Below are positions 25,259-34,820 of a stretch of DNA of 64,000 bases, one piece after another. The position numbers and the translations under genes are program-made. The notes beneath the pieces were generated by a model. That model was not told where the DNA came from, did no database searches, and worked only from the letters and a program-made list of their open reading frames with translations. Within the stretch, counting starts at the first letter, position 1; each line of letters begins with the position of its first letter. The stretch comes from Rhodobacteraceae bacterium WD3A24 (GTDB lineage: Bacteria > Pseudomonadota > Alphaproteobacteria > Rhodobacterales > Rhodobacteraceae): positions 1-64,000 of the forward strand of contig PUHN01000014.1 in the NCBI GenBank assembly GCA_002967695.1, written 5' to 3'.

Positions 25259-25372
25259 CGCCGCTCATTGCCTGTTCGGCCGCGCCTGCGAAGGGGGCGG
25301 CGTCGGAGCGCATGAGACGGCGCGCCCGTGCGACTGGCACCGGGGCCGTCCGGCCCACCGGAGAGGAGCGTC

Positions 25373-26998
25373 ATGCCCGTATTCCGTCTGCTCGCCGCCC
25401 TTGCTCTCATCGCTTTCGTCCTGCCTGCGGGCCGTGCCGCCGCGCAGGAGATCGGTCAGGCGCTTGTCGTCGGCAACGAACGCTATGCGCGGATGGTCGC
25501 GGCGCGCGGCGCCGCCGACGCGGCGCAGGCCGCCGAGACGCTGTCGGTCGAAGGATTTCGCAGATTCGGGGGCGCGAACCTGTCCGCGACCCGCATTCGG
25601 GCGGAGATCTCGGCCCTTGTCGCCGCGCGCGAGGAGGGCGCGGCGGGGCGCATCGTGATCCTTCTGGCGGGTCATTTCGCGCAGGGGCGCGGAGAAAGCT
25701 GGTTTCTTGGCACCGATGCCGACCTGCCCGATCTGGCGACGGTGGGCGCGCAGGGCGTGGCGCTGTCGGCGGTGCTGGCCGTGGCGGCCGACGCGCCGGG
25801 CGGGGCGGTGGTGCTGCTGGCGCCTTCGCGGCGGCGTTTCACGGCCGGGCCGGGGCTCGCCCCCGGTCTCGGGGTGCTGGAGGCCCCGCAGGGTGTGACG
25901 ATTCTGCGCGGCCCGGTCGCGCGGATCACCGACTTCGCACAGCGGGCCTTGCCCGAACGCGGCGTGGCGCTGGGCACGCTGGTGGAGGATTGGCCCGATC
26001 TGCGCGCCGAAGGATTCGTCTCAACCCTCGTCGCATTTCTGCCCGAGGACATCAGTGCGCCCGATGGCGCCGCACAGCGGCGCGCCGCGGATATTGCCGC
26101 ATGGGAGTCGGCCCTTGAGGCGGACACGCCGGCGGCCTATCGGCGCTATCTCGACCGGTTTCCCCGCGGGCTCTACGCGCAAGAGGCCCGCGCCGAACTT
26201 GAGAGGCTGACCAACACGCCGGAGAGGATCGAGGAGGCGCTCGGCCTCACGCGGGCGCAGCGGGTGCGTATTCAGCGGGAGTTGTCCGATCTGGGCTACG
26301 ACACGCGCGGGATCGACGGCATTTTCGGCCCCGGCACCCGCTCGGCGATACGCGCCTGGCAGCGCGACAGCGGGCTGACGGAGACAGGCTATCTCACCGC
26401 CGCGCAGATCCTCCGGCTGGCCGAGCAGGCGGAGCGGCGCCAGGCCGAGCGGGAGCGCGCCGACCGCGACTACTGGAACAGGACCGGGGCGCAGGGCGAT
26501 GAACAGGGCCTGCGGGCGTATCTGGAGCGTTATCCTGACGGGCTTTTTGCACAGACCGCGCGGGCGCGGCTGGACCGGATCGAGCAGGCCCGTGCCGAGG
26601 AGCGCGCGGCGCGAGACGATGCCGCCTGGCGGCGGGCCCGCGACACGGACACGTCGGCGGCCTATCGCGACTATCTCGATGAGTATCCCGAAGGCCGGCA
26701 CGCCGAAGAGGCCCGCACCCGGCTCGACGATCTTGCCGGTCCCGGCCGGGACGCGATCGAGGCCGCCCGCGCCGCCGAGAGCCGGCTTGGGCTCAACCCC
26801 GTCACGCGCAGCATGATCGAGCGCCGCCTCGATGCGCTAGAGCTCGACCCCGGCCCGGTGGACGGCGCCTTTGACGCCCGGACGCGCGAGGCGATCCGGC
26901 GCTATCAGCAAAGTCGGGGACTGCCCCCCACGGGGTATCTGGACCAGCCTCTGATGGTCGAGCTGCTGGCCGACAGCGTGCGCGGCTTTTTCCGGTAG
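25373..26998 (+). CDS. Secreted caspase-like protein with two peptidoglycan-binding domains
   Basis: This 541-residue protein has a signal peptide (residues 1-24, cleavage near AAA-Q). Residues about 26-210 resemble the caspase/metacaspase p20 core. ALVVGNERYARM, a later VEGFRRFGG and ILLAGHF with H101 (equivalent of the catalytic His) are present, but the strand where the nucleophilic Cys should stand reads VVLLAPSRRR, so it is probably inactive. Three short repeats with A-x-R-x-Y-L-x-x-[FY]-P-x-G follow (about 240, 370 and 415). Two PG_binding_1 modules (GIDGIFGPGTRSAIRAWQ and PVDGAFDARTREAIRRYQ) are interleaved with the repeats. A periplasmic cell-wall-binding role is likely. Confidence 0.8.
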   Translation: MPVFRLLAALALIAFVLPAGRAAAQEIGQALVVGNERYARMVAARGAADAAQAAETLSVEGFRRFGGANLSATRIRAEISALVAAREEGAAGRIVILLAGHFAQGRGESWFLGTDADLPDLATVGAQGVALSAVLAVAADAPGGAVVLLAPSRRRFTAGPGLAPGLGVLEAPQGVTILRGPVARITDFAQRALPERGVALGTLVEDWPDLRAEGFVSTLVAFLPEDISAPDGAAQRRAADIAAWESALEADTPAAYRRYLDRFPRGLYAQEARAELERLTNTPERIEEALGLTRAQRVRIQRELSDLGYDTRGIDGIFGPGTRSAIRAWQRDSGLTETGYLTAAQILRLAEQAERRQAERERADRDYWNRTGAQGDEQGLRAYLERYPDGLFAQTARARLDRIEQARAEERAARDDAAWRRARDTDTSAAYRDYLDEYPEGRHAEEARTRLDDLAGPGRDAIEAARAAESRLGLNPVTRSMIERRLDALELDPGPVDGAFDARTREAIRRYQQSRGLPPTGYLDQPLMVELLADSVRGFFR

Positions 26999-28478: not shown

Positions 28479-28772
28479 ATGATCGTCTGTCACTGCAACG
28501 CCATCACCGACCGCGACATCCGCGCCGCGGTGGACTGGATGCGCGCCGCCGATCCCGAAACCATCATCACGCCGGGCAAGGTCTATCACGCGCTGGGCAA
28601 GCGCGCCGATTGCGGCGGCTGTCTGCCGCTCTTGCTTGCCGAGATGGAAAAATGTGACACATTGGAAGTGCCCATGAACCTGCGCGGCCTGCGCCGCGCC
28701 AAGCTGGAGGGAAAAGCGGATGAAGGGCGACGCCAAGGTCATCGAATACCTCAACGCGGCGCTGCGGAGTGA
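28479..28772 (+). CDS. bfd: Bacterioferritin-associated ferredoxin
   Basis: Bfd donates electrons to bacterioferritin to release stored iron. The 97-residue protein has the [2Fe-2S] ligands C4 and C6 (CHC) and C45 and C48 (CGGC). The family is normally about 65-75 residues; here a basic C-terminal tail of roughly 25-30 residues extends 53 bases into bfr in another frame. It is 15 bases after hemP. The tail may be translated simply because no stop occurs earlier. Confidence 0.92.
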
Positions 28773-29205
28773 GCTGACCGCGATCAACCAGTACTGGCTG
28801 CACTACCGGATGCAGGAGGACTGGGGCTATGGAAAGATCGCGGCCAAGTCCCGCGCCGAGAGCATCGAGGAGATGCACCACGCCGACAAGCTGGTCGAGC
28901 GCATCCTGTTTCTCGAAGGCCATCCCAACCTGCAGAAGCTCGATCCGCTGCGCATCGGGCAGACCCTGCGCGAGACGCTCGACTGCGATCTGGCCGCCGA
29001 GCACGATGCGCGCACTCTCTACAGGGAGGCGCGCGATCATTGCGAGGCGGTGGGCGACTATGTCTCCAAGAACCTTTTCGAGGCGTTGATCGCCGACGAG
29101 GAAGGCCATATCGACTATCTCGAAACCCAGATCGGCCTGTGCGAGGAGATCGGCGCGGAACGCTACGGGCTGCTCAACGCCAGCTCCGCCGAGGCGGAGG
29201 AATAG
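28720..29205 (+). CDS. bfr: Bacterioferritin
   Basis: Bacterioferritin forms a 24-subunit heme-containing iron store. The 161-residue protein has all ferroxidase ligands at family positions (E18, E51, H54, E94, E127, H130) and the heme-ligating M52. The ATG at 28720 is within bfd (53-base overlap) and preceded by AGGG. The pair bfd-bfr is a functional donor-store unit. Confidence 0.96.
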
Positions 29206-30813: not shown

Positions 30814-33060
30814 TCAGGCGGTGCGCCGGCGCCGGCTGTCATCGGGCTGTCGCCGCTCTTCGGCGAGGGCGCGGGCATAGACCTCGCCGATCGAGTCGGC
30901 AAAGGCGTCGAGGGCATATTGCCGGGCGAATGCCTGTGCCCATCGGCCCATCTCCGCCCGGAGGGCATCGTCGCGCAGCAGCGATTCGACCGCTCCGGCC
31001 CAGGCGTCGATGTCCTCGAGCGTCTTGAAGCCGTTATGGCCATGGCGGACGAAATCGTCGATGCCGCTTGAATCCACGGCCACGACGGGCAGCCCGGCGG
31101 CCATGGCCTCGACCACGACCATCCCCTGCGTCTCGGACTTGGAGGCGAAGACGAATACATCGCCCAGCCGGTAATGCGCGGCCATCTCTTCGGGCGCCAC
31201 GGCCCCGGTGAAGGTGACGCGGTCCTGAAGCCCGCAGGTTGTGATCAGCGCCTCCAGGCGGGGGCGGTCGGCGCCGTCGCCGAGGATGAGCAGGCGAAAG
31301 GGGCGGTCGAGCCGCTCCTTCAGCCGGGCGACGGCGCGGATCAGGAAGGCCACGTTCTTTTCGGGCGAAAGCCGCGAGGCGGTGACAAGCACAAGTTCGT
31401 CACCGATCTGCAGTTCCTTGCGCAGCGCCGCGACCCGACTTTCGGGAACCGTCAGGAACGTCTCGTAGTCGATGCCGGTGGGCTGGACGAAAATCGGACG
31501 CCACACCCCGATCAACCGCATGTATTCCTTGGCCGCCGCTGTGGGCACGACCACCGCGCTGCACTTGTTGGCGAAGCGTTCCACCAGCCAGTGCGAGATC
31601 ACGTTGCGAAACAGCCGCCCCGGAAAGGGGATGTAGTGGGCATAGTGTTCGAGCCGCGTGTGATAGGTGTATATGGCGGGCGCCTTCTTGCGCCGTGCGA
31701 GGAACAGACCGAGCGAGCCCATCCAGAACGGATGGTGCAGATGGATCACATCCGGGCCGAATTCGCGCAGCCGGCGCCGGATGCCGCGCTGAAAGATGTT
31801 GGCGATGGCGAACTCGCCGCTCAGCCCCCACGGCACCAGCGGTCGCACGCGCAGAACCTGCGGGTCGTCCGCCCCGTCCGCGTCGGGATAGCCGGGCGCG
31901 ATGATCATCACCGTGTGGCCCTGCGACTCGAGCGCGCCGCGCAGCCGCGCGATCGAGATCGGCACGCCGCCGACATAGGGCAGGTAGTTGTTGGTGAACA
32001 TCGCAACGCGCAGGGGGCGGCCCCGCCACGGCGTCGGATCGACGTCGTAATGAGGATAGTAGTCGCGCTCGCGGTAGAGCAGTCGATAGAGCTTGACCGT
32101 CACCAGCAGCAGGGCGCTGAATATCAGAAGGAAGTTGACCGCGCTGACGTAGAACAGCGAATAGATGAAGAACCACAGGCTTTCGAGCCGCGACATCAGC
32201 GGGCTCTGCCCCGAGTCGAGCCGCTCCAGCCCGATCTCGACCTCGCCGGCGCCGGAGCTAACCGTCAGATAGTGGTAGAAGCTCGTCTCGGTATTGAGGA
32301 CGAACCCGCCGCCTCCCCCCGTGGTGACGTAACGCACACCGTCGCGGGTCCGGTCGGCAAAGGTCGCCGGCCCGGCCGAAAACACCGCGTCGACGCCATG
32401 GCGCGCGAACATCCCCATCAGGCGGGCACGATCCTGCGGCGCCGACCACGCGCCGTCGTCGGACGCAAAGAACATCTCCTCTTCCGGTGCAATGAGCGGA
32501 TGGCCCATGAACACCAGAACATGCGCCGCACCGGTTCCCGCGAGCAGGTCGTCGAGCCAGCGCTCCTGCCAGCGCACCGGCGTCTTGCCGGTGCTGTCGA
32601 GAAACACCAGATGCGTATCCGCCGCGCGGGCGGAGTAGAAATGCGGACCGAAGCGCTCATAGAAGCGGTAGCTTCCGAACTCCTCGTATTCGTTCTCGCC
32701 GAAGGTCAGCAGATAGGGCCGTTCGAGATGGCTCAGCGTTCCCACAAGCGCGCGATACTTGTCCTCGCCGCCGCCCGACACGGCGTTGCCCGCCGACACG
32801 ACGAGATCGGCCTCGGAGTCGTTGATGCGCGGGATGATCTGGTTTTCGAAGACGCCGATGGAGTTGTTGACATTGCCCACGACCGCAAGCCGCAGCCGGT
32901 CGGCGTCGGCCACCTGCGTTTCGAGCCGCGCGATCTGGTCGCTGTGGAGCGCCTCGACATCGGCGGGAAACAGCAGAAGATAGGCCTTGTAGCCGATCAG
33001 CGTGACCAGCAGCGCAAGGTTGAGATAGAGCAGGACGGATATGACGACCCGCCGGTTCAC
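30814..33060 (-). CDS. Degenerate metallophosphoesterase-glycosyltransferase (GT4) fusion
   Basis: This is a 748-residue fusion. An N-terminal membrane helix (about 6-30) is followed by a calcineurin-type phosphoesterase-like domain (about 58-290), then a second helix pair or long helix (about 310-345) and a cytosolic GT4 glycosyltransferase (about 370-730). The phosphoesterase metal motifs are altered (VVGNVNNS, SAGNAV, FGENEY, SAGPATF; only the MGHPL histidine survives), so it should be inactive. The GT4 part is intact, with GGVPISIARL, the ASRLSPEKNV donor region and SETQGMVVVEAMAAGLP (E-x7-E). GTG 33058-33060 is chosen because GGGAGG precedes it and it overlaps the upstream stop by 4 bases. 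The acceptor is perhaps a lipid. Confidence 0.82.
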   Translation of the reverse strand: MNRRVVISVLLYLNLALLVTLIGYKAYLLLFPADVEALHSDQIARLETQVADADRLRLAVVGNVNNSIGVFENQIIPRINDSEADLVVSAGNAVSGGGEDKYRALVGTLSHLERPYLLTFGENEYEEFGSYRFYERFGPHFYSARAADTHLVFLDSTGKTPVRWQERWLDDLLAGTGAAHVLVFMGHPLIAPEEEMFFASDDGAWSAPQDRARLMGMFARHGVDAVFSAGPATFADRTRDGVRYVTTGGGGGFVLNTETSFYHYLTVSSGAGEVEIGLERLDSGQSPLMSRLESLWFFIYSLFYVSAVNFLLIFSALLLVTVKLYRLLYRERDYYPHYDVDPTPWRGRPLRVAMFTNNYLPYVGGVPISIARLRGALESQGHTVMIIAPGYPDADGADDPQVLRVRPLVPWGLSGEFAIANIFQRGIRRRLREFGPDVIHLHHPFWMGSLGLFLARRKKAPAIYTYHTRLEHYAHYIPFPGRLFRNVISHWLVERFANKCSAVVVPTAAAKEYMRLIGVWRPIFVQPTGIDYETFLTVPESRVAALRKELQIGDELVLVTASRLSPEKNVAFLIRAVARLKERLDRPFRLLILGDGADRPRLEALITTCGLQDRVTFTGAVAPEEMAAHYRLGDVFVFASKSETQGMVVVEAMAAGLPVVAVDSSGIDDFVRHGHNGFKTLEDIDAWAGAVESLLRDDALRAEMGRWAQAFARQYALDAFADSIGEVYARALAEERRQPDDSRRRRTA

Positions 33061-34112
33061 CCGCGCCTCCCGATCCGGGCGATCTCGATCTGGGTCAGGA
33101 TCAACCCTATGAGCATTCCGAAATAGATCGTCGCGAAGCGCCATGCGACGATGACCAGCAACAGCTGCCCCGACGGCACCTGCCCGGCGAACAGGCCGGC
33201 GAACACGCCTTCCGAGATGCCGGCCGATCCGGGCGTGGGCGCGAAATACATGATGAAGGTGACGACGACGAGCTTGCCCGTCGTGTCGATATAGCCGACA
33301 TCATGGCCCAGATTGGTCAGGATCAGAGCGGGAAAGCTGAACAGGCTGACCAGAAAGACCAGCGTGAACAGCATCGATGCGGCAACTTGGCGCCGCGGCC
33401 CGCCCAGATAAGTGCGGAAACTGAGCGAGAAATCGCGCAGCTCCGCGGAGACCTGCTCCTGCCAGCGGTCGCGGCGTTCGGGGCCGATCAGGCCGATCCG
33501 GGCGCCGAGGCCGATCAGCCGGGCGATCGGGGCGATCAACCAGCCCGCCCGGAACAGCACCACTGCAAACCCTGCCAGATAGGCGAGGATGAGCAGGGCC
33601 ACCGCCTCGGAGATACGCCCGAGGATCGGGTGCCCGGCCAGTTCGGGCAGCGACAGCAATGCCAGCGGCGCCAGCGTGAAGATCACGATGACGGCCAGCA
33701 CCGTCCGGATCGTCGTGGCCGCCATCGCCCGGCCGACGCCCACGCCATGGGCGCGCAGATACCACACCTGCGCGAAGCCGCCGCCCGTGGCCAGCGGCGT
33801 GATGTTGGAGAAGAAGATGTTGATGAAGACCAGCCGCAGCATGGCGCCCGGTGCGATCGTCTCGCCCAGCGCGCGCAGCGTGAAGTAGAGCCGCAACCCG
33901 TCGGCCAGCAGATACAGCGCCATCAGCGCACCGACCGAGGCGATCATGCGCGCGCTGAATATCCGCGCGTCAAAGCGGATCGTCCCGCCCAGCGCGTCCT
34001 GGACGGCCCAGAGGCCGAGCGCCGTCAGCCCGACGAACAGCCCCCCCAGCAGGAGCATGCGCCGCGCGGAGCGGTCGGGCGGCAGATCGGTGGGAATGGC
34101 GCTCCGGGGCAC
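33057..34112 (-). CDS. Flippase-like/LPG-synthase transmembrane-domain family protein
   Basis: This 351-residue integral membrane protein with eight or so helices matches the lysylphosphatidylglycerol synthase transmembrane region (UPF0104/flippase-like). Signatures are NIFFSNITPLATGGGFAQVWYLRAHG and the late APTPGSAGISEGVFAGLF. The aminoacyltransferase domain of true MprF is absent. Such stand-alone proteins are often associated with glycosyltransferases and proposed to move lipid-linked substrates. It overlaps the glycosyltransferase fusion by 4 bases, so the two are probably translated together. Confidence 0.88.
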   Translation of the reverse strand: MPRSAIPTDLPPDRSARRMLLLGGLFVGLTALGLWAVQDALGGTIRFDARIFSARMIASVGALMALYLLADGLRLYFTLRALGETIAPGAMLRLVFINIFFSNITPLATGGGFAQVWYLRAHGVGVGRAMAATTIRTVLAVIVIFTLAPLALLSLPELAGHPILGRISEAVALLILAYLAGFAVVLFRAGWLIAPIARLIGLGARIGLIGPERRDRWQEQVSAELRDFSLSFRTYLGGPRRQVAASMLFTLVFLVSLFSFPALILTNLGHDVGYIDTTGKLVVVTFIMYFAPTPGSAGISEGVFAGLFAGQVPSGQLLLVIVAWRFATIYFGMLIGLILTQIEIARIGRRG

Positions 34113-34208: not shown

Positions 34209-34820
34209 TCAGAACAGCGCCAGCAGCCCCGCCGCCGCACCGGCCAGAGTGGCGACCAGCACCAGCCCAAGCCCCACGGCGCAATAGCCCAGGATCACCA
34301 GCACCCCGTCGCGCAGATAGAGCCCGCCCGCGAATAGCGCCATCGCCGTGGCCAGCGTCATGGTCAGGAACGGCACCAACTCGATCAGCGGCATGAGAAA
34401 GCTGATGACCAGGCAGATCAGCAGGGGCGGGATGTTGCCGGGCGGGTCGGTCAACCATGTCAGCCGGACCTTCAGCCACGGGTCGATCCATGCCGCCGGC
34501 CAGCGCAGAAACGCCACGACCTGTTTCTGCCGGTGGGGTGGCAGCGTCTGACGGCGCAGAACCGCCGGCAGCCACAAATGGTCGCGGCCCAGCAGGATCT
34601 GCAGCACGATAAGCCCGATCAGCAGGGCCAGCAGGCTAGGCATGCCGGGCACCACTGCGACGGGGGACAGGATCACGAGCGTGGGAACAAGAAGAAGCAG
34701 CGCGAAAGAGCGCTCGCCCATCTGCCGCAGAACGTCCTCGACCGACAGCCCCTTTTCGCTGCCGGCCCGCTCGATCTCGTCAACAAGCTCGTCGAACTTT
34801 CCGCCGCCCTGATCGCTCAC
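34209..34820 (-). CDS. ExoD family exopolysaccharide synthesis protein
   Basis: This 203-residue membrane protein has the ExoD layout. A soluble N-terminus contains GLSVEDVLRQMGERSFALLLL, followed by VPGMPSLLALLIGLIVLQ and PRRQTLPPHR-like basic loops between helices. ExoD in rhizobia affects exopolysaccharide production and alkaline tolerance; its molecular activity is unknown. It lies 96 bases upstream of the flippase-like gene on the same strand and suggests an envelope glycan theme for the cluster. Confidence 0.88.
   Translation of the reverse strand: MSDQGGGKFDELVDEIERAGSEKGLSVEDVLRQMGERSFALLLLVPTLVILSPVAVVPGMPSLLALLIGLIVLQILLGRDHLWLPAVLRRQTLPPHRQKQVVAFLRWPAAWIDPWLKVRLTWLTDPPGNIPPLLICLVISFLMPLIELVPFLTMTLATAMALFAGGLYLRDGVLVILGYCAVGLGLVLVATLAGAAAGLLALF

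Follow-up and report, generated by a model that had tools for sequence, protein, structure and literature searches.

Genes at the Locus

The window, that is the whole stretch of 64,000 nucleotides analysed from Rhodobacteraceae bacterium WD3A24, contains on its minus strand a fused gene (30814..33060), coding for a 748 aa protein in which the ORF list, hydropathy, Pfam searches, alignment and fold comparison identified, in this order, a TM helix, a phosphoesterase-like domain that has lost its metal site, a second TM helix and a GT4 glycosyltransferase. The longest ORF (30814-33144, minus strand) starts at the first ATG and gives 776 aa; however, the GTG at 33060 shares 4 nt with the stop of the upstream flippase-like gene and, since three plasmid homologues are annotated with the identical overlap, this GTG is the better start, in agreement with the ORF and coordinates proposed in an earlier note on this DNA. 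Residue numbering begins from it.

The upstream gene (33057..34112, minus strand; ORF list and profiles) codes for an LPG_synthase_TM/UPF0104 flippase-like protein, which scores 104 bits with PF03706 (cut-off 33.4) and 19.9 bits with the GpgF model (cut-off 320). Directly upstream, on the same strand, an ExoD-family gene (34209..34820; ORF list and profile) is a possible member of the same operon; together with a gene annotated as "exopolysaccharide biosynthesis protein" on a plasmid (locus L011, 12605-13237), it places such a neighbour near the cassette in two lineages.

The two TM helices predicted from hydropathy, at residues 5-23 (32992..33048, minus strand) and 302-320 (32101..32157, minus strand), flank residues 55-285. 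GT4 enzymes require cytosolic nucleotide sugars; this need, together with the presence of two helices, indicates that the phosphoesterase-like domain is probably extracytoplasmic. The distribution of Lys and Arg, compared in six fused proteins, agrees weakly with this predicted topology: these residues are more numerous after the second helix than before it in five proteins, with a tie in L012, and around the first helix they are more numerous before it in three, with three ties.

The Glycosyltransferase Domain

The GT4 domain covers residues 348-735 (30856..32019, minus strand; profile matches) and contains two Pfam domains above cut-off, PF13439 (114.7 bits) and PF00534 (135.4 bits); the nearest solved GT4 chains by sequence include 3c48 and PimA. 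Sequence and alignment confirm that the donor-binding motif described earlier is kept: E643-x7-E651 (31108..31134, minus strand) has both glutamates invariant in all of the 16 fused proteins, out of 17, that could be aligned. The closest curated GT4 model is that of the alpha-monoglucosyl-DAG synthase Mgs (NF049988), which spans the GT4 part only and is matched with 194.5 bits, below its cut-off of 400; the second is the GlcNAc-PG synthase GpgS (118.9 bits, cut-off 480). NF049988 is also the closest curated model for the four other fused proteins that were scanned.

A role in defence was considered and rejected. PF20706, named "GT4-conflict", matches 16/16 fused proteins, but the general GT4 models match the window protein more strongly, and neither the flippase nor the fused protein had a PADLOC match at 1e-5.

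The Probable Ectodomain: A Predicted Phosphoesterase Fold without Its Metal Site

Residues 55-285 (32206..32898, minus strand), whose position outside the membrane is probable from hydropathy, are predicted to adopt the calcineurin-like (class III phosphodiesterase) fold. Residues 1-345 were modelled with AlphaFold2 from a three-sequence alignment; the model has a mean pLDDT of 65.6 and a pTM of 0.65, with pLDDT below 50 at residues 121-139, which form the loop of former motif III, and 250-261; the full-length model (pTM 0.45) is the basis of no claim made here. All 43 Foldseek matches at E ≤ 0.001 are phosphoesterases or proteins of the same fold, and VIA-align superimposed the model on Rv0805 (2hyo) with Z 18.5, rmsd 3.2 and 205 aligned residues, and on GpdQ with Z 18.2. 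The calcineurin-like arrangement suggested in the earlier note was thus found again in the model, and a non-phosphoesterase fold was not seen. PF00149 scores the window protein below its gathering cut-off (16.6 vs. 21.5 bits) and, at E ≤ 1, matches 10 of 16 fused proteins, the best with 4.9e-6; for this reason, the homology rests on the fold comparison and on the alignment with relatives having an intact site. The model makes the phosphoesterase-like fold class secure, but not the atomic details of the former active site. The likeness to Rv0805 and GpdQ concerns the overall fold; unlike them, the ectodomain lacks the metal ligands, is inserted between two TM helices and is fused to a GT4 domain.

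Ligand positions were assigned by aligning the 17 fused domains with 24 separate TM-anchored relatives, a set that leaves out four further matching genomes and one second match. The two-metal ligand set of the calcineurin-like superfamily, which we take to be D, D, N, H, H, H, falls at positions 63, 92, 122, 186, 230 and 232. No canonical ligand was found at any of the six in the 17 fused proteins (position 63 being unread in L027). In the window protein, the alignment places former motif I at G62-N63-V-N65-N66-S67-I68 (32857..32877), where intact relatives mostly have GDxR; motif II at S89-A-G91-N92-A-V94 (32779..32796), instead of GD; motif III at G121-E122-N123-E124 (32689..32700), instead of GNH[ED]; motif IV at residues 183-188 (32497..32514); and motif V at S228-A-G230-P-A232-T (32362..32379), instead of a sequence that is mostly H-x-H, all on the minus strand. 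Four of the five motifs had been described as substituted, and these are changed as stated; the fifth, motif IV, is lost as well, because the ligand His aligns at G186 (FMH-VPL in intact relatives vs. FMG-HPL in the window), and the adjacent H187 varies among the fused proteins. Replacements are consistent within the fused group: N92 is present in 17/17, N123 in 15/17 and E or D at position 122 in 15/17, and N92, N66, S67 and E124 are invariant in the 16 aligned proteins.

Among the separate relatives, 16 of 24 keep all six ligands, with D63 in 19, D92 in 23, N122 in 20, H186 in all 24, H230 in 17 and H232 in 20. No fusion with an intact site was found among the 17, though the same searches did recover intact separate relatives; a sequencing error as the cause of the loss was rejected, since the loss is common to all 17 homologues. 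The eight separate relatives that depart from the canonical set (L031, L037, L038, L039 and L041 at several positions; L045, L050 and L051 at one each) are scattered across the tree, which suggests that the family probably lost or altered its metal site more than once. Three separate membrane phosphoesterases with several changed motifs, in loci L066 (9219-10481), L070 (3906-5213) and L071 (9328-10356), correspond to genes L031, L038 and L039 and belong to different branches of the family tree.

Distribution of the Fusion

The same fusion occurs at 17 distinct loci, including that of the window, which represent three bacterial groups as well as plasmids (the window, L007-L012, L023-L027 and L053-L057). 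The fused proteins, as judged from these searches, form a small and patchily spread family. Among the WD3A24 genome and 60 relatives, the fusion is present in one of 61, which is the genome's own copy. The genome samples are draws from larger groups, so that the counts are not full: in the class sample, 6/385 genomes match at 1e-10, the gene being fused in WD3A24 alone and the other five matches being proteins without a GT4 of the fused type; in the phylum of a Desulfobacteraceae MAG, 34/395 match at 1e-20, six of them with fused genes; in that of a Haloplasmataceae MAG, only this MAG does (1/392); and in the phylum of WD3A24 itself, 6/349 match, its own genome included, all six with the fusion. 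A search of genome contigs gave two fused loci (L007 and L008). Matches were also found in 33 of 72,556 plasmid records, 30 of which are from Pseudosulfitobacter; four of the 33 were examined at the locus level, and those of the four that have annotation label the gene "glycosyltransferase". The best plasmid matches of the genome's GAPDH place WD3A24 probably in the Rhodobacterales. The fusion is missing from the 60 relatives but carried by plasmids and by distant groups, a pattern suggestive of horizontal transfer, by which the fused gene apparently moved between distant bacteria.

A phage origin was rejected: 41 phage records match, none over more than 80% of the query, and the five listed cover the GT4 part only; viral contigs contain no relative of the fused protein. 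The search for the same domain pair in other genomes, proposed in the earlier note, thus yielded 17 fused loci, none with an intact metal site; the architecture described there is real and conserved, forming one group in each tree (see below), but it is not unique to WD3A24. No description of a glycosyltransferase-metallophosphoesterase fusion was found in the literature covered, from which subscription journals are mostly missing, so that this is weak evidence of novelty.

Origin of the Fusion and Selection on the Two Domains

In the tree of the phosphoesterase domain (16 fused and 24 separate sequences, L027 being left out), the fused group is set apart from the rest by a branch supported at 100/100, and in the GT4 tree (16 fused and 16 unfused) it splits off at 96/95, with several very long outgroup branches. 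Distances in the two domains correlate (r = 0.915; 0/9999 permutations as high). Taken together, the two trees and the correlated distances fit a single fusion event, after which the halves moved together. Locus L069 has a GT4 gene beside a separate phosphoesterase; however, this GT4 is no close relative of the fused ones (branch 4.5), so that it is not their source.

In four close pairs, the dead domain gave dN/dS values of 0.074, 0.048, 0.068 and 0.038, and the GT4 domain gave 0.047, 0.066, 0.075 and 0.049; the pairs have dS of 0.5-1.2 and come from two lineages, three of the four lying among L012, L055 and L056. The ectodomain has therefore lost its catalytic residues and yet is under purifying selection, as expected of a pseudoenzyme, and the designation proposed in the earlier note holds as far as sequence and model can show. 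The conserved and apparently transferred pairing, in turn, suggests that the dead half probably has a real job, perhaps in the making of a surface glycolipid.

Gene Neighbourhood and Comparison with Known Systems

A flippase-like gene of the same subfamily as that of the window lies directly upstream of the fused gene at 10/17 loci, according to a local HMM built from five of the ten loci that it scores. At two more, L061 and L062, a PF03706 gene close to GpgF is nearby, on the opposite strand in L062; in total, 12 of the 17 loci have such a gene adjoining or two genes off. None was found nearby at the remaining five (L007, L012, L055, L056 and L060). Four genomes among these carry PF03706 genes elsewhere, and the L012 plasmid record has none; a copy elsewhere says little, since 11 of the 14 genomes used as controls likewise carry PF03706. 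A VTT (DedA-type) gene is convergent beside L055 (L074, Pfam), and VTT-like ORFs were recognised by eye beside L012 and L056. The second PF03706 gene of the WD3A24 genome has other neighbours, one ORF of which is GT4-like.

Unfused GT4 genes were compared at 13 loci from a phylum sample in which 18 of 297 genomes matched, five of the 18 being fused. Within the flanks examined, a flippase of the window's subfamily is present at two of the 13: in L094 and L095, an unfused and distantly related GT4 is flanked by a DUF2334 gene on one side and a flippase-like gene on the other. The best-scoring unfused GT4 genes (L084-L093) have no such flippase operon in the examined flanks. Ten loci with separate phosphoesterase genes were also inspected, and in three of them (L064, L069 and L071) the gene is near a PAP2, VTT/PAP2/LssY or lipid A acyltransferase gene.

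Some fused loci have neighbours worth recording. In L059 (4616-10662), PAP2, VTT/PAP2/LssY, flippase-like and fused genes follow each other on the same strand and may form an operon for lipid handling. Two Rhodobacterales plasmids have the cassette near genes for a calcium/sodium antiporter, CorA and an alkaline phosphatase D family protein (L009, 7275-14166), or for a calcium/sodium antiporter, YbaL, exopolysaccharide, TerC and hemolysin-family proteins (L011, 5485-15758); a link of the cassette to cation or phosphate stress is possible.

The clearest operon is that of L061, in which the fused glycosyltransferase is followed on one strand by a GlcNAc-lipid deacetylase (NF053788, 338 bits, above the cut-off of 280), a GpgF-like flippase (NF053789, 272 bits, just below the cut-off of 320) and a VTT/PAP2/LssY gene; this is the order of gpgSDF, with the fused protein in the place of the synthase. 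In Pseudomonas aeruginosa, GpgS is reported to synthesise GlcNAc-PG, which GpgD then deacetylates, and GpgF is predicted to act as a flippase; GlcN-PG is still present in the gpgF mutant, in a reduced amount (PMC12713373). GpgSDF and the window share a GT4 synthase and a UPF0104-type predicted flippase. Unlike the TM-anchored fused protein, GpgS is predicted in the same report to be cytoplasmic, devoid of TM helices; moreover, the window proteins score under the GpgS and GpgF equivalog cut-offs, and there is no deacetylase gene beside the window pair, the sole PF10096 match of the genome scoring 23.4 bits, below the cut-off of 26. A similar operon is hexSDF of Clostridioides difficile, which is reported to be required for an amino-sugar glycolipid (aminohexosyl-hexosyldiradylglycerol) and combines a predicted glycolipid synthase, a deacetylase and an MprF-like flippase, the same order as in L061, the lipid being made also without HexF (PMC10128005). 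The differences are that HexS is annotated as an MGDG synthase, that the window has no deacetylase and that the accessible text mentions no phosphoesterase domain for HexSDF (PMC10128005). By analogy, the two window genes look like gpgSDF/hexSDF reduced to S and F, with D missing.

Proposed Role and Alternative Explanations

The reading that we slightly prefer, at little better than even chances, is that of a membrane-tethered glycolipid synthase with a partner flippase, whose dead ectodomain binds at the outer leaflet and tunes or positions synthesis. The cytosolic GT4 domain would move a sugar from a nucleotide donor to an inner-leaflet lipid of the diacylglycerol or phosphatidylglycerol type, and a hexosyl or HexNAc glycolipid is its likely product. 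The upstream UPF0104 protein would help this product to reach the outer leaflet, a somewhat probable function. The ectodomain would descend from a TM-anchored, metal-dependent phosphoesterase whose metal site was lost entirely, probably in a single event, in the ancestor that all the fused proteins share. Its target, bound non-catalytically on the outer side of the membrane, would be the flippase, the head group of a phospholipid or the glycolipid once flipped, and it would then position or tune the synthase through the two TM helices. We infer the glycolipid product, its flipping, the ligand binding and the regulation by the ectodomain. The ligand, at a first guess, would be either the head group of a lipid or the product after flipping, because some of the separate relatives sit among lipid-phosphate genes. 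Points counting against this reading are the five loci with no flippase-like gene nearby, the lack of a deacetylase in the window, the distance of its flippase from GpgF, the contexts of the unfused GT4 genes, the synthesis of the lipid without HexF and the GlcN-PG still present in the gpgF mutant, as well as the weak Lys and Arg bias, the low-pLDDT loops of the model and the unremarkable conservation of the former-ligand columns by themselves.

The ectodomain is a reasonably probable non-catalytic binding module, and this is to be weighed against a structural anchor or assembly surface, which would tether the GT4 domain to envelope partners or the flippase without binding a small ligand. GAP50 and Vps29, phosphatase-fold proteins, serve as scaffolds; both are among the Foldseek matches, and the GAP50 title says "anchor". 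They share with the ectodomain a phosphoesterase fold in a non-catalytic role, but GAP50 (from Plasmodium) and Vps29 are eukaryotic, belong to an unrelated context and have no glycosyltransferase fusion. The 4-nt gene overlap, which suggests coupled production of the flippase and the fused protein, would also suit an anchor; the five loci with no flippase-like gene nearby do not. Conservation speaks on both sides: the eight named former-ligand columns, taken alone, show no clear excess (45/230 circular shifts as high), whereas the columns lying up to four residues from a former ligand have a conservation of 0.730, compared with 0.614 in the rest (8/230 shifts as high), and those up to two residues away give 11/230. 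This somewhat better conservation of the sequence surrounding the old active site counts against an anchor, as does the invariance of N92, N66, S67 and E124. On this balance, a mere anchor appears doubtful. Another explanation, held to be rather unlikely, is that the GT4 domain acts on polyprenyl-phosphate-linked glycans (exopolysaccharide or O-unit) instead of glycerolipids, the ectodomain recognising the flipped lipid-pyrophosphate glycan. The adjoining ExoD-family gene and the PAP2 and VTT genes found close to certain members of the family, both fused and separate, would agree with it, as would a known metallophosphoesterase, though a cytoplasm-facing one, that frees undecaprenyl phosphate from diphosphate-linked polymers (PMC11898649); however, the best curated match of the GT4 domain is a DAG glucosyltransferase, the L061 operon is of the GlcNAc-PG type and no Wzx/Wzy gene was recognised by eye in the ORFs of 12 fused loci.

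The consistent polar replacements at positions 92, 122 and 123 might reflect an ectodomain still alive, with a changed and perhaps metal-free chemistry involving Asn and Glu residues; this is very improbable, since His is absent from the three ligand His positions in all 17 proteins, and Asp from position 92 (17/17) and from position 63 (16/16 readable). Loss of the catalytic residues is also what a decaying remnant without function would show, but the frames are open at the 16 loci with a fully readable gene and the dN/dS of the domain, 0.038-0.074 in the four pairs from two lineages, rejects decay as far as sequence can, leaving it the most remote of the explanations.

A more ambitious form of the glycolipid-synthase reading, put forward tentatively and with clearly lower confidence, is a transmembrane pseudoenzyme sensor: the ectodomain would read an outer-leaflet lipid, either phospholipid head groups or the glycolipid once flipped, and by way of the two TM helices set the activity of the cytosolic synthase, a feedback across the bilayer, with synthase, sensor and flippase travelling between phyla as a compact two-gene cassette for membrane remodelling. 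In our judgement, the way in which outer-leaflet sensing sets inner-leaflet lipid synthesis is poorly understood; if the sensor were real, a protein with a glycolipid synthase in the cytosol and a non-catalytic domain outside, on one chain, would open the question of leaflet sensing to direct tests. The fused family also offers a bacterial example of a phosphoesterase fold that has given up catalysis and yet is under strong selection, and its cassettes, partly plasmid-borne and labelled there only "glycosyltransferase", are candidates for lipidomics.

Two further features of the window lie on the plus strand. The gene at 25328-26998 is predicted to combine a caspase-like domain (Peptidase_C14, 24.4 bits) with peptidoglycan-binding domains (PF01471), a pairing that looks unusual, and at 28479-29205 a BFD-like [2Fe-2S] gene overlaps a ferritin-family gene, likely forming a bacterioferritin pair.
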